Shown piece by piece: positions 33,695 through 40,211 of a stretch of DNA of 64,000 nt (the first letter of the stretch is position 1; each line of letters opens with the position of its first letter). The notes under the pieces were generated by a model. That model worked only from the letters and a program-made list of their open reading frames with translations. It was not told the origin of the DNA and made no database searches. The stretch is from Candidatus Gastranaerophilales bacterium (GTDB lineage Bacteria; Cyanobacteriota; Vampirovibrionia; Gastranaerophilales; Gastranaerophilaceae), in assembly GCA_016280955.1 (NCBI GenBank), contig JAEEHV010000043.1:1-64000 (forward strand), read 5' to 3'. Made by a program: the position numbers and the translations under genes.

Positions 33695-33880
33695 TAAATT
33701 TAATAGGGAAACCAAGGGTGAAAGTCCCTGACTGTGCCGCAGCCGTTAAAGCCGGAATACCTGAGATAGTGAAGTAAAAAGAGGAGTTTTACAGGCTTTT
33801 CATCTTCGTATCTTGCAGCCAAGCTTCGAGACAAAGTATTGGCTAAAGTGTTCTTCTGTTGCGGCAATTCGCAAGAGAGG
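33695..33880 (+). ncRNA. Cobalamin riboswitch (compact) and expression platform
   Basis: TTTAATAGGGAAACCAAGGGTGAAAGTCCCTGACTGTGCCGCAGCCGTTAAAGCCGGAATACCTGAG. Compare the remembered E. coli btuB leader TTAATAGGGAATCCAGTGCGAATCTGGAGCTGACGCGCAGCGGTAA...AGCCCGAAGACCTGCC. The GTAAAA/TTTTAC hairpin and GATA...TATC pairing follow the core. Confidence 0.88.
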
Positions 33881-33889
33881 AATTTTATT

Positions 33890-34552
33890 TTGGCAAATTC
33901 TGTTCAAAACTTAGGCACAAATAAAGCCGGAACCTGTCCGCATGGAGCAGCTTTTGGAGCATGCCCTATTTGTTCCGGAATGGGCGGCGGTTCAAGAATG
34001 GGCGAAAGACCTCAAAAAGCCGGTGAATGGTCCTATCATCACTGTGTTATGGTTGGAAATCTCATGAAAGCCAGAGAAGCCCGAACGGAAGCACATGAGC
34101 AAAACCTTCAGAAACATGCCGAAATGATTAAAGCATTTGAACAAAGTCTTATTAATACAGCAAACAAATTTGCAGACTTTGCAGCAAAAGTTCAAAACAA
34201 TATTATAATGAAGCCTGTCGCTTTGGTTATTAACAAACTAATTGTTCCGGCTCTGAGAGCATTTGCAAATATTCCAAATATAATAACAACAGTTAAAGAA
34301 AAGTTTATCGACATACAGGACAAACTCAATGCAATCTTTGGTGAAGCAAAAGCATTTGTTCAAAAGAAAATATCCGAGCTGGTCAGTATTGTAAAATCAA
34401 AATTTACAGACCTTTTTAAAATTTTTAAACGGAATAACACAAAAGACGATGAAACAAAAATTGATGAAGATAAAAAAATCTTCAGACTAAAAACTTTTCT
34501 TCAGAAAATTCTGAGAAAGGACAAAAAAGAAAAAAATGATTCAGAAAATTAA
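33890..34552 (+). CDS. Hypothetical protein with N-terminal Cys/His motif CPHGxxFGxCPxC, under cobalamin riboswitch control
   Basis: The track ORF starts at a TTG at 33839; TTG at 33890 follows the SD-like GAGAGG. LANSVQNLGTNKAGTCPHGAAFGACPICSGMGGGSRMGERPQKAGEWSYHHCVMVG. Confidence 0.75.
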   Translation: MANSVQNLGTNKAGTCPHGAAFGACPICSGMGGGSRMGERPQKAGEWSYHHCVMVGNLMKAREARTEAHEQNLQKHAEMIKAFEQSLINTANKFADFAAKVQNNIIMKPVALVINKLIVPALRAFANIPNIITTVKEKFIDIQDKLNAIFGEAKAFVQKKISELVSIVKSKFTDLFKIFKRNNTKDDETKIDEDKKIFRLKTFLQKILRKDKKEKNDSEN

Positions 34553-36038
34553 TCAGGATCTTGAAAGTACAAGACACCAAAAAAATATGACAAATACTCA
34601 AAAACGGAATGATTACTTTGTAAAAGAAGGAATTATAATCAATTCCTATGTCAAAGATCCCAATTTATCACTTGATGAAACATATGATTCACTTGTAATT
34701 TCAAAAAATCAAATAGCACTGCCTGAAAAACTAACGGAAAAAGATAAACCTTCTATAAATCCGCTTTACCCGATTTGTGCAATGACAGTCGGAGGAATGG
34801 GACTTATTGGCGGTTTTACGGCAATGATGAAAAAATTTTCCAAAGGCAAAATGGAATCTTCAAAAGAATATTTACTTCCGGGAATTACAAGAAACCATTG
34901 TATAAATGATGAAATTCACCAGAGTATTTTTTCTATGGTTCAGTCACCCAACAGAAAAACAATACTCGCATCAATTGGAGTAATAACTCTGGGAGCAATG
35001 GCTTTTGCAGGAAAAATATTTATCGACGGATTTAAAGAAATATGGGTAAAAAGTCAGGAAGCAAACATACAAAAAAATCTTCAGGAAAATCTTATTGCGG
35101 TTGAAACTCAGAGTTTTTCCGGCAAGCTTCAGATAATACGAAGTATGTTATCTTCAAAAGCAAAAATCTTTTCCGACGAACTGAACTTTAAGCAAAAGCA
35201 CCACAACAGTTATTCACCTCAGATGAAAGGTGCAAAAAACACATACAACGATACTAAAGAAATGTTTGCAATCGGAGCCCTGAGTGCAGTATCTATTTTA
35301 GGTTTGGGGTATTTTGCAGCCAAAAACATAAGAAAAAGTGATGAGTATATAAAAAACGGAATTAAAAATACAAAAAAAGGAATTGAACTGGTAATAGAAG
35401 AATTTAACAAAGGAAAACCTCTCAACAACCTGGAAGGACACAAAGGAGAACTTCTTTCAGGGAAAGATGCATACAAACTGCTTCTTGAAAATATGCTTGA
35501 ATCAGTATATGCAAAACCGGAAGAAATAGAACAAACCGTAAATAAACTAAAACTTACGGACACCGAAAAAAAAGAATTTATAAATCACCTGAAAGACACA
35601 ATGAATCAGGCAACCGAAAAAGTTAACCCTATGATGGGCGGTTCCGGCAGAAACAAAATCACATATTTTTCTCACGTCAATGATTATCTCTCATTTTTCT
35701 ATGACTGGCTAATGAATCCGAAAAACCCTCAATTTAAAAACCTGTTCTTCGGTATTGCCGGAATTTCAGCTCTTGCTTATGGTGGGAAAACCGCTTCTGA
35801 AGCAGTTAAAGAGGTTCAGGTAAAAAAATATTCCGCCGATATTGAATTAAATCTTCAAAGGCGGCTTGTTGCAACCGAACTAAGGAATTTCAAAGCTAAA
35901 AAGGATTCTGCAATAGAACCTTTGTGTACCGAATTTTTCAAACAAAAAGCAAACGGCAAATCGCCGGAAGAACTGAAAGTTATGGCAGATAATATTCTAT
36001 TTGAAATTAAAAACGGACCACCGTTTGTTTATTCATAA
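34536..36038 (+). CDS. Hypothetical multi-TM protein, second gene of the cobalamin-riboswitch operon
   Basis: 500 aa; ATG overlaps the upstream gene by 17 nt. Hydrophobic segments include PICAMTVGGMGLIGGFTAMM, TILASIGVITLGAMAFAGKIFIDGF and FAIGALSAVSILGLGYFAAK. Confidence 0.8.
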   Translation: MIQKINQDLESTRHQKNMTNTQKRNDYFVKEGIIINSYVKDPNLSLDETYDSLVISKNQIALPEKLTEKDKPSINPLYPICAMTVGGMGLIGGFTAMMKKFSKGKMESSKEYLLPGITRNHCINDEIHQSIFSMVQSPNRKTILASIGVITLGAMAFAGKIFIDGFKEIWVKSQEANIQKNLQENLIAVETQSFSGKLQIIRSMLSSKAKIFSDELNFKQKHHNSYSPQMKGAKNTYNDTKEMFAIGALSAVSILGLGYFAAKNIRKSDEYIKNGIKNTKKGIELVIEEFNKGKPLNNLEGHKGELLSGKDAYKLLLENMLESVYAKPEEIEQTVNKLKLTDTEKKEFINHLKDTMNQATEKVNPMMGGSGRNKITYFSHVNDYLSFFYDWLMNPKNPQFKNLFFGIAGISALAYGGKTASEAVKEVQVKKYSADIELNLQRRLVATELRNFKAKKDSAIEPLCTEFFKQKANGKSPEELKVMADNILFEIKNGPPFVYS

Positions 36039-36129: not shown

Positions 36130-37164
36130 ATGAAATACAAAGATTATTATGAAATATTAGGAGTTTCACGCAGTGCTGATGCTGCTGAAATAAAATCCGC
36201 ATATAGAAAACTCGCAAGGAAATACCACCCTGACGTTAACAAAACAAAAGAAGCTGAAGAAAAATTTAAAGATATAAACGAAGCATACGAAGTTTTGTCT
36301 GATAAAAACAAACGTCAAAGATATGACAGCCTCGGTTCAAATTGGCAGGGCGGTGCCGATTACACTCCGCCTCCGGGATTTGAAAACTTTAGTTTTAACT
36401 TTAATCAGGGCGGAGCTCAAAGTTTTGACTTTGGCGGCAGCGGATTTTCCGATTTTTTCAGTTCTCTGTTCGGAGACATGATGGGCGGCGGAATGAACGG
36501 TCAAAGAGTTCATCAGGAATTTAGCGGATTTGACTTCGGAAATGCAGGACAAAGACGTGCTTCAGGTTCAAGAAAGACAACCCAAACAGCACAAAGTGCC
36601 GATTTGGATATTACAAAAACACTTAATGTTACCGCTAAAGAACTTTTTGACGGTAAGCCGATATCAGTAACATTTACTGATATTGAAAAATGTCGTGAAT
36701 GCCACGGTAACGGTTATTGTTCGCATTGCGGCGGAACCGGAATTGTGTCCGTACCAAAAACTGTAAAAGTAAAGTTACCGAAAGGCATTGAAGAAGGTAA
36801 AAAAATTCGCCTTAAAAATGAAGGTAAAGCAGATGCATACGGAAGAAAGGGCGATTTATATTTTATTGTTCATTTTAAAGACAGTGAATATGACTTTGAC
36901 GGTGCAAACATAACAAAAGACGTTGAACTGACACCGCCTGAAGCAGTTCTTGGATGCAGCAAAGATATTCAGACTTTGCACGGCAAAATAAACATTAAAA
37001 TCCCTGCCGGTGTTTCTTCCGGACAATCATTGCGCTTAAAACAACTTGGACTGCCAAATCAAAACGGATTTGGAGATTTAAACGCAAGAATTAAAATAGT
37101 TATACCTAAAAATCAGTCAAAGGAAATAATAGAACTTTATAAAAAAATATATGCTCTTCAATAA
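36130..37164 (+). CDS. DnaJ/CbpA-type J-domain protein with a reduced zinc finger
   Basis: J domain [33 protein letters not shown]; Gly-rich region; only CRECHGNG and CSHCGGTG; C-terminal substrate-binding domain. Confidence 0.93.
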
Positions 37165-37331: not shown

Positions 37332-40211
37332 ATGAAGATTATAGAAGTAAGAGATGGTTTTTTAAAATTTGAAGCTGATAAAAGCATTTACCTTTCGTCT
37401 TTTATCCACGTTAAAGGTATGGAAAAAGTTTATATAGCTCAGGTAATTAAACTCAATTCCTTCGGAGAGCAGTCTGTTGCTGTTGCAAAAATGCTCTTCC
37501 TGTTTGAAAATCAAGAATTAAAAGCTTATGATAAAACCGAGCCCCCAAAAGATTCTGTAATAAAAGATTTTACTTCGGAAATTCTCAGTAACTCAATAAG
37601 ATTCAAAGATCCGGTAATTATAGGAAAAACTGCCGATAATTCAAATAATATTACAATAGATGCATCCGCATTTAATAAAAAAATGATGATTTGTGCGGAC
37701 ACAAAAATTTCTAATAATATACTTGTAAGAAATTTTACAAAACAATTTCTAAATCTTCAGAAAAAGGTTATAATCATTGATACCCTTGGCATTTTAGACG
37801 GCAAAAAATATATTGCCGGTACAGATTTTAAACTGCCTCTTGATGAAATATCTTTGGACTTTTTATACGAATCCTGTCTGAGTGATGCGACAGAGGACAG
37901 TAAAAAAACAATTATTGAGCTTTTTAATGAACTCAAAGAATATTCCAAATCGGTTGAATTTGTTCCGTTTGATGTTCTTAAAAATATCGTAGATAATATG
38001 GTAGACAAAGAACATGTGTTCAAACTTCTTGTTCTGAAAAATAAACTTTCAAAATATTCATCTATGGGATATTTCGCATCAAAACAGGAAGAAGTTAATG
38101 TATTAAATAAAATTATAAATTCCAATACCGCAATTTTGGATATTTCAAAACTTGATACACTCTTCCAAAACCGTTACCTGACATATATTTTCAGCAAGTT
38201 AAGCAATCAGAATAACGTTCAGGTATTTCTTGAAGCTGCAAATACTGTATCAAAAGCAAATTTAAAAACAGCTCTGTCTGACAACAGTTTATCAACAACT
38301 TTCATCACACACTCAAAATTCAAATATCTTAATGATATGAAAAGCATGTTTGATAACTTCATTGTTGAACCCTCAATAACAATAAATGAAGCATTTAAAA
38401 TTTATGACAATTTCCTTAAGGGAATGAAAGGAAATAGTTGTCTTATTACAGGAGAAGCAACTAATTATATTCCGATAGTTATAAATGTTCAGCCAATTGA
38501 CGAAGTTCCCGAAATAATCAAAACAGACAACCCTCCGGTTATATACGAAAAAGGTGATATTGAACCGGTTGATGAACCTGAAGAAGCTAATGAAAGTACT
38601 GAGTCGGAAACCGTAACGGAAACAGAAGCAGAAATAGAGCAGGGAGATGAATTTGAACAAGAACCTGAACAAGAGCAGGAACCGGAGCTGGAATCTGAAC
38701 AGGATTACGAAATAATTGAGATTGATTCTGAAGATTCTGAGAATGAAGTAAAACCGCAGCCATCACAGGAAGAAATAATATCTTCTATTGATAAAAAATC
38801 GGAAGATGCTATAGCTAAAGTTGCCGAAAATCTTGAACAACCTGAAAATATTGAGTTGTTTAATAATGAAAGCGATGAAGAAAAAGAACCGGAAGAATAT
38901 TCACCTGATGATGAAACAGAAGATTTCAATACAGAAACAGATGATAACAATACAGAAACGGATGATTTTTCAGAAATAGACAAAACCGAAGATATCGATG
39001 ACATTGACGAAGACGATGACAATGATGACATATATGATACGGTAACAGATGAAGAGCTGGAATTTGAAGAATATAATCCTGCTCAGGATAATACAGAAGA
39101 ATTTATTACAGATGAAGATGCTGTATTTGATAAAGAATTGGAAATCGTAGAATATGATTCCGAACAAAATACTGATTATCAGGAAGAATTCGATAATACA
39201 AACTCCGAACAAATTATTGAATTTGACGAAAGCGAAAATTCGGATAATTTGGAAGATGAATTATCTGCCGATATCTCAGATGTAGAAACCGACGATAATA
39301 CATACACAGAAGAATTTGACGAGCTTGAAAATGAAATTTCTTCCGAAGAAGAGTATGGTGAAAATTTTGAAGAAGACATTGAACCTTCTCAACAAACAAA
39401 CGATGCCGATAATGAGCCGGAAGAACTTGAAACCGAAGAAGAAGCTTTAATCAATACTGATAATGAAAATCTTATTGAAATTGAAAACAGTGACTTAGAG
39501 TTGGATGATATTGATTCAGAAAATGATAATCTGGAACAACAAAAACTTGCACAAATAGAAGCTCAGTTTGAGCAGCCGACTGTTATGCCGGTAAGCAATT
39601 CCGCTGATGATGCTGATGATTTCAGTGAAATAGTCGAATTAGACCCTTCAGAGGCAGATGAAAACGATATCGTAATTGATATGAGCGAAAGCAGCGAATC
39701 TGACGTTGTTGATGAAGAAGTAGAAAGAAAGATAATGGAGGATGTAGACAAGGTCTACACAACTTTAAAGAATGACAACCAAGATAATACAGAAGCTGTC
39801 GAAGATGAATATTCGGAATCTGACCTTGATTTAATAGATGAACTTAACAGTGAAGATACAGAAATTTTAGAAGATGAAAGTTCTGCCGAAATTGAAGAAT
39901 TACCGGAGGGTGATGGAATTCTTGACGACAGAGCATCAAAAGAAAGTATTGAAGAATTTAACTCTGAAATTCTTGAGAAAAAAGATTCTACCACACCAAT
40001 AGTTCCTGTTTATGATGCAAGTATTCCTCAGGAAGACATTGTTATGAGCGATCCTATAGAACAGGGCGATAATGTTTATCACGCAAAATACGGTAACGGT
40101 GTTGTCGAAAAAATGATTAAATACGGAAATAAATCACTTTACTCCATTAATTTTGAAAATATCGGAAGAAGATTGCTCGATCCTACACTCACAGAGATTA
40201 AGAAACAATAA
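37332..40211 (+). CDS. HerA/FtsK-superfamily-like pseudo-ATPase, long acidic linker, UvrD/PcrA-type C-terminal Tudor-like domain
   Basis: HAS-barrel-like N-term; KVIIIDTLGI, NTAILDISKLDTLFQNRYLTYIFSKL and VQVFLEAANTV align with HerA landmarks, but no GxxxxGK[ST]. C-term QGDNVYHAKYGNGVVEKMIKYGNKSLYSINFENIGRRLLDPTLTEIKKQ. Confidence 0.7.
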   Translation: MKIIEVRDGFLKFEADKSIYLSSFIHVKGMEKVYIAQVIKLNSFGEQSVAVAKMLFLFENQELKAYDKTEPPKDSVIKDFTSEILSNSIRFKDPVIIGKTADNSNNITIDASAFNKKMMICADTKISNNILVRNFTKQFLNLQKKVIIIDTLGILDGKKYIAGTDFKLPLDEISLDFLYESCLSDATEDSKKTIIELFNELKEYSKSVEFVPFDVLKNIVDNMVDKEHVFKLLVLKNKLSKYSSMGYFASKQEEVNVLNKIINSNTAILDISKLDTLFQNRYLTYIFSKLSNQNNVQVFLEAANTVSKANLKTALSDNSLSTTFITHSKFKYLNDMKSMFDNFIVEPSITINEAFKIYDNFLKGMKGNSCLITGEATNYIPIVINVQPIDEVPEIIKTDNPPVIYEKGDIEPVDEPEEANESTESETVTETEAEIEQGDEFEQEPEQEQEPELESEQDYEIIEIDSEDSENEVKPQPSQEEIISSIDKKSEDAIAKVAENLEQPENIELFNNESDEEKEPEEYSPDDETEDFNTETDDNNTETDDFSEIDKTEDIDDIDEDDDNDDIYDTVTDEELEFEEYNPAQDNTEEFITDEDAVFDKELEIVEYDSEQNTDYQEEFDNTNSEQIIEFDESENSDNLEDELSADISDVETDDNTYTEEFDELENEISSEEEYGENFEEDIEPSQQTNDADNEPEELETEEEALINTDNENLIEIENSDLELDDIDSENDNLEQQKLAQIEAQFEQPTVMPVSNSADDADDFSEIVELDPSEADENDIVIDMSESSESDVVDEEVERKIMEDVDKVYTTLKNDNQDNTEAVEDEYSESDLDLIDELNSEDTEILEDESSAEIEELPEGDGILDDRASKESIEEFNSEILEKKDSTTPIVPVYDASIPQEDIVMSDPIEQGDNVYHAKYGNGVVEKMIKYGNKSLYSINFENIGRRLLDPTLTEIKKQ

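Follow-up and report, generated by a model that had tools for sequence, protein, structure and literature searches.

A single-copy protein of Gastranaerophilales combines a HerA-like domain lacking the Walker A motif, a long acidic linker and a PcrA/UvrD-type Tudor domain

An open reading frame on the plus strand of a Gastranaerophilales genome (37332-40211, ATG start) was found to encode a 959-aa protein in which a HerA-like domain without a Walker A motif is connected by an acidic linker to a Tudor domain of the PcrA/UvrD type. The protein probably has no enzymatic role and serves instead as a genome-maintenance adaptor. According to the explanation that was considered best, although its probability was put at only about 0.42, it would be a non-catalytic adaptor with a UvrB-directed Tudor tether, linking excision repair to places where recombination or fork processing occurs. 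The features of the gene are given below; positions are those of the window, that is, the whole 64,000-nucleotide stretch of DNA analysed.

37332-40211, plus strand: whole gene, encoding the pseudo-HerA domain, the acidic linker and the Tudor domain (959 aa)
37332-37571, plus strand: N-terminal beta domain resembling a HAS-barrel, about residues 1-80 with an approximate boundary (strands spanning residues 2-79 in the AlphaFold2 model; Foldseek match of the whole domain to HerA)
37572-38501, plus strand: RecA-like HerA core with a helical insertion and without a P-loop, about residues 81-390 (profile, alignment, AlphaFold2, Foldseek, Pfam)
37683-37718, plus strand: residues 118-129, MMICADTKISNN, where the Walker A loop has been lost (placed by alignments and by the match to the HerA profile)
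37779-37781, plus strand: D150, an invariant residue corresponding to the aspartate of the DxxGEY strand in HerA
38517-40058, plus strand: acidic low-complexity linker, residues 396-909, net charge -185 (composition)
38766-38822, plus strand: short linker motif, residues 479-497, genus consensus EEEIIANIEEKSEDVI (conservation)
39621-39686, plus strand: short linker motif, residues 764-785, DEIVELDPDEADENDI (conservation)
39717-39776, plus strand: short linker motif, residues 796-815, DLDKQIVEDVDKVFTTRKDD (conservation)
39807-39857, plus strand: short linker motif, residues 826-842, ISDSDLDFIDELN, with the similar TEDDLNFIEDVN in other genera (conservation)
39993-40037, plus strand: TPIVPVYDADIP motif ahead of the Tudor domain, residues 888-902 (conservation)
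40059-40208, plus strand: PcrA/UvrD-type Tudor domain, residues 910-959, with H917, Y920, F941, R946 and L948 (Pfam, alignment, profile, structure)

Chance was ruled out for the reading frame, the missing P-loop, the acidic linker and the Tudor match. The protein has only one match in its own genome of 2.78 Mb, and the reading frames of the gene in relatives are open, without stops. No Pfam or NCBIfam family spanned the protein in full when these collections were searched, and no description of it was found in a literature search. A viral origin was also considered; the search gave no viral relatives for the Tudor region. PADLOC models gave only weak, scattered matches, and assignment to a defence system was rejected.

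The distribution of the protein was determined with the Tudor alignment, which found homologues in genome contigs, whereas a single-sequence query gave no match. Exactly one copy was present in 190 of the 193 genomes of the order sampled; the remaining three (G149, G298 and G304) gave no match, owing to either loss or an assembly gap. In addition to UvrD, another Tudor protein is encoded in three families of the class that lie outside the order (f9, f14 and f15). The proteins of this second lineage have the layout of the window protein and an N-terminus related to its own (hhalign E=5.5e-6 for f9); they are more divergent, and their linkers measure some 150 to 1660 aa. In the genomes sampled elsewhere in the phylum, there is mostly a single, UvrD-sized Tudor protein. 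Family f18 (G335, G344, G353), which lies outside both lineages, gave two or three Tudor matches per genome.

The fold of the N-terminal domain was studied by several methods. The AlphaFold2 model of residues 1-390, a single chain like the other models in this analysis, had a mean pLDDT of 92.6 and a pTM of 0.89. The 50 Foldseek matches listed for it in the PDB were almost throughout chains of HerA or HerA complexes, and the best of them was HerA (E=2.9e-16, TM 0.68 on the query), such E-values being informative on fold and not on function. Profile A1, built from 26 relatives, matched Sulfolobus solfataricus HerA (4d2i) with E=3.3e-7 and another HerA with E=0.006. The Pfam family DUF87, which corresponds to the HerA central domain, matched 9 of the 26 A1 members (best E=2.2e-9), one of which scored above the Pfam cut-off in a genome search. 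Because profile, Pfam, AlphaFold2 and Foldseek agreed, the HerA fold of residues 1-390 is well established; both the HAS-barrel and the RecA-like fold that mark HerA/DUF87 proteins are present. A HerA-like N-terminus had already been claimed in a preliminary description of the sequence, and this claim was confirmed.

The GxxxxGK[ST] loop had been described as missing, and indeed it was absent from the window protein and from all 130 sequences aligned; an orthologue with an intact Walker A was sought among these sequences, and none was found. Inspection by eye of the HerA-like region in the divergent f9, f14 and f15 sequences revealed no Walker A either. The 'IGKT' at residue 98, which the preliminary description had placed at the P-loop position, sits on the preceding strand, where it is aligned with HerA 'IRIGSLIGKNVEVKL'; the true position is occupied by MMICADTKISNN. 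The proposal that KVIIIDTLGI is the HerA aspartate strand was upheld, since D150 of 'IIDTLG', the Asp of DxxGEY in HerA, was found in 130 of 130 aligned sequences. The strand VQVFLEAANTV had been put forward as Walker B. Of 100 distinct sequences, 53 had E and 7 had D in the column of E301 (VFLEAAN), the proposed Walker B glutamate, and judging from these sequences Walker B is not conserved in the family.

The K154A mutation in the P-loop of HerA was reported to abolish nucleotide binding and to perturb binding of dsDNA (PMC5715905). Because Walker A is gone and HerA K154A loses nucleotide binding, ATP-driven work by the 959-aa protein is very unlikely, and ATP-driven DNA translocation by the pseudo-HerA domain in particular would be unlikely judging from its motifs. 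A locus in one genome of the order (L165, G035:C205) encodes an intact HerA-type ATPase with the P-loop GNTGSGKS. It was considered as a close relative and rejected, the hhalign match being only partial (E=0.00045).

Loss of the P-loop was not accompanied by decay. For the pairs that could be estimated, dN/dS of the pseudo-HerA domain was 0.02-0.12 and that of the linker was higher, 0.14-0.39, these rates, like the counts, being drawn largely from draft metagenome assemblies. The domain is under strong purifying selection and therefore has a function. A pseudogene was ruled out by these rates together with the open frames in relatives.

The linker of the window protein comprises 514 aa, of which 39% are D/E and 4% are K/R, in agreement with the very acidic low-complexity region described previously. 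In 76 relatives, the median values were 36% D/E and 3% K/R, and the linkers of the second lineage are net negative too. This strong, family-wide acidity with almost no K/R would suit a DNA mimic or decoy, in which the linker would cover the surfaces with which nucleoid or repair proteins bind DNA, and the folded ends would do no more than position it. However, the linkers of three second-lineage proteins are proline-rich and contain just 15-16% D/E, and the most conserved parts of the 959-aa protein are its folded ends rather than the linker. Moreover, short motifs are kept in the linker within the genus, for example SDSDLDFIDELN and TPIVPVYDADIP, with related forms in other genera, as would be expected of a docking tether. 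A role as a DNA mimic is considered very unlikely.

The C-terminal tail had been likened to the Tudor-like domain of UvrD/PcrA, and this likeness was borne out. Although the Pfam model PcrA_UvrD_tudor (PF21196) matched the tail alone below the Pfam cut-off (E=0.0019), a profile of the tail matched UvrD/PcrA Tudor structures with E=9.4e-8. Matches in a structure search with the Tudor model included 7egt, the UvrD Tudor domain with UvrB, and 7egs, a Tudor domain with the RNA polymerase lobe. In PcrA, each of the substitutions H681A, W684A, K712A and L714A severely reduced RNA polymerase binding (PMC5397179). The PcrA residues H681, W684, K712 and L714, read off the alignments (PcrA PDB sequence and alignment A2), correspond to H917, Y920, R946 and L948. 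In A2, the His and Leu are invariant, an invariant Tyr replaces the Trp, and a nearly invariant Arg replaces the Lys; in the second lineage, the position of R946 is occupied by Lys in the f9 proteins. The tail is a PcrA/UvrD-type Tudor domain that includes the residues of the binding face. No helicase domain, and hence no SF1 helicase core, was detected in the protein by Pfam; its N-terminus is HerA-like instead. The CarD/TRCF RID model (PF02559) scored 12.3 bits against a cut-off of 23 (E=0.19). The window genome also encodes a second Tudor protein, which is UvrD-sized.

The likely partner of the Tudor domain was considered next to the known PcrA interactions. The PcrA Tudor domain binds a TGE hairpin in the SI1 insert of RpoB, and UvrB has the same motif (PMC8318588). 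The SI1 insert was absent from the RpoB of eight genomes of the lineage: in the comparison with TIGR02013, about 75 model positions were skipped, with almost no residues between, and a TGE motif was not observed in this region. The UvrB of the window genome contains IDHLTGEIL, and TGE or TGD was found in 11 of 13 UvrB proteins, the site not being reached in the other two (L248 and L258). Since RpoB lacks SI1 and UvrB has the motif, UvrB is favoured over RNA polymerase and, as a best guess from these sequences, may be the likeliest Tudor partner. Against this link it should be counted that the TGE motif is widespread in UvrB. As a separate observation, the DNA form of the TGE motif was far commoner than its reversed control in the window genome (G000) and seven relatives, with 9 versus 0 occurrences in the former.

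The same data bear on a role as an RNA polymerase adaptor, in which the Tudor domain would bind the polymerase elsewhere than at the SI1 hairpin, and the tether would hold the dead HerA domain close to complexes engaged in transcription. The Tudor domain retains the residues on which polymerase binding by PcrA depends, and its fold resembles the domains of Mfd and CarD that bind the beta1 region of RpoB (PMC5397179). However, the eight RpoB proteins are without SI1 and the match to the CarD/TRCF RID is weak, and this role is regarded as unlikely. Of the transcription-repair scaffold that had been suggested earlier, the combination of dead HerA domain, tether and Tudor domain stood, whereas RNA polymerase as its target was not supported in the form put forward.

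The genes surrounding the loci were examined. Both RarA and ComM function in recombination of DNA or in the processing of forks. The rarA gene (identified by MgsA_C) lies head-to-head with the gene in families f9 and f15, and in the window genus 11 loci have it close by. Among 18 loci of families f2-f7, comM/yifB is divergent from the gene in 11. Because of these neighbours, it is proposed that the adaptor may tie excision repair to recombination or fork-processing sites. Counting against a repair reading, the neighbours vary by lineage, and adjacent repair genes need not imply a role in repair.

In the window, dnaJ adjoins the gene upstream; it is not conserved beside the gene and was rejected as a conserved partner. 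The DnaJ-like protein (36130-37164) has DnaJ and DnaJ_C domains, an apparently shortened zinc-finger region and a score below the NCBIfam DnaJ cut-off. Farther upstream, the proteins encoded at 33839-34552 and 34536-36038 had no NCBIfam match, and the latter had no Pfam match above the cut-off. In eight loci of the order's other families (L034, L037-L040, L045, L048 and L049), a protein of about 150 aa without a Pfam match is encoded immediately upstream on the same strand.

By analogy with HerA proteins, which act with such partners as NurA, SIR2 and DUF4297, the dead HerA domain could be a docking platform for some enzyme. Complexes of HerA with enzymes were among the Foldseek matches listed, and the upstream protein of about 150 aa could be such a partner. 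However, no conserved nuclease neighbour was found in the neighbourhoods examined, and the PADLOC matches also speak against a platform of this kind, which is judged quite unlikely.

In the other genera of the family, all 20 loci have nadD-yqeK immediately upstream of the gene and in the same orientation, which could point to a process unrelated to DNA, such as NAD metabolism via a nadD-yqeK operon. However, neither the window genus nor families f2-f7 nor the second lineage showed this arrangement, and both folded domains derive from DNA-processing proteins, which makes such a process highly improbable.

For the adaptor directed at UvrB, the following course of events may be envisaged. The dead HerA domain, alone or as a ring, would serve as a structural platform holding a partner or DNA without ATP. 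The tether would let the Tudor domain reach and capture proteins with a TGE hairpin, most likely UvrB, in competition with UvrD or alongside it. A bolder proposal, which is considered unlikely, is that a DNA-translocase ring has been turned into a passive, ATP-free clamp or platform whose Tudor tether recruits repair factors, making the protein a lineage-wide core factor of genome maintenance with no described counterpart.

It is unusual for a near-universal, single-copy and strongly constrained protein to combine a dead DNA motor with a docking domain taken from a repair helicase. The protein offers a clean test of the role of the HerA fold without ATP. It also tests the function of the PcrA/UvrD Tudor domain in a lineage whose RNA polymerase is without the known docking insert.

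Comparison with known systems shows both likenesses and differences. The hexameric DNA translocase HerA (4d2i; DUF87, PF01935) and the 959-aa protein have in common the HAS-barrel, the RecA-like core and the Asp of DxxGEY, but the latter lacks Walker A and a conserved Walker B, and has an acidic linker and a Tudor domain. The RNA-polymerase-binding Tudor-like domains of Mfd (TRCF) and CarD are similar small beta-barrels; their sequence match is weak (E=0.19), whereas the UvrD/PcrA Tudor domains match far better. Unlike PcrA and UvrD, the 959-aa protein has no helicase domains. With the C-terminal Tudor domains of these helicases (5dma, 6yi2, 7egs, 7egt and 9dqs), it shares the fold and the face formed by His, aromatic, basic and Leu residues, and in both cases a disordered linker precedes the Tudor domain.
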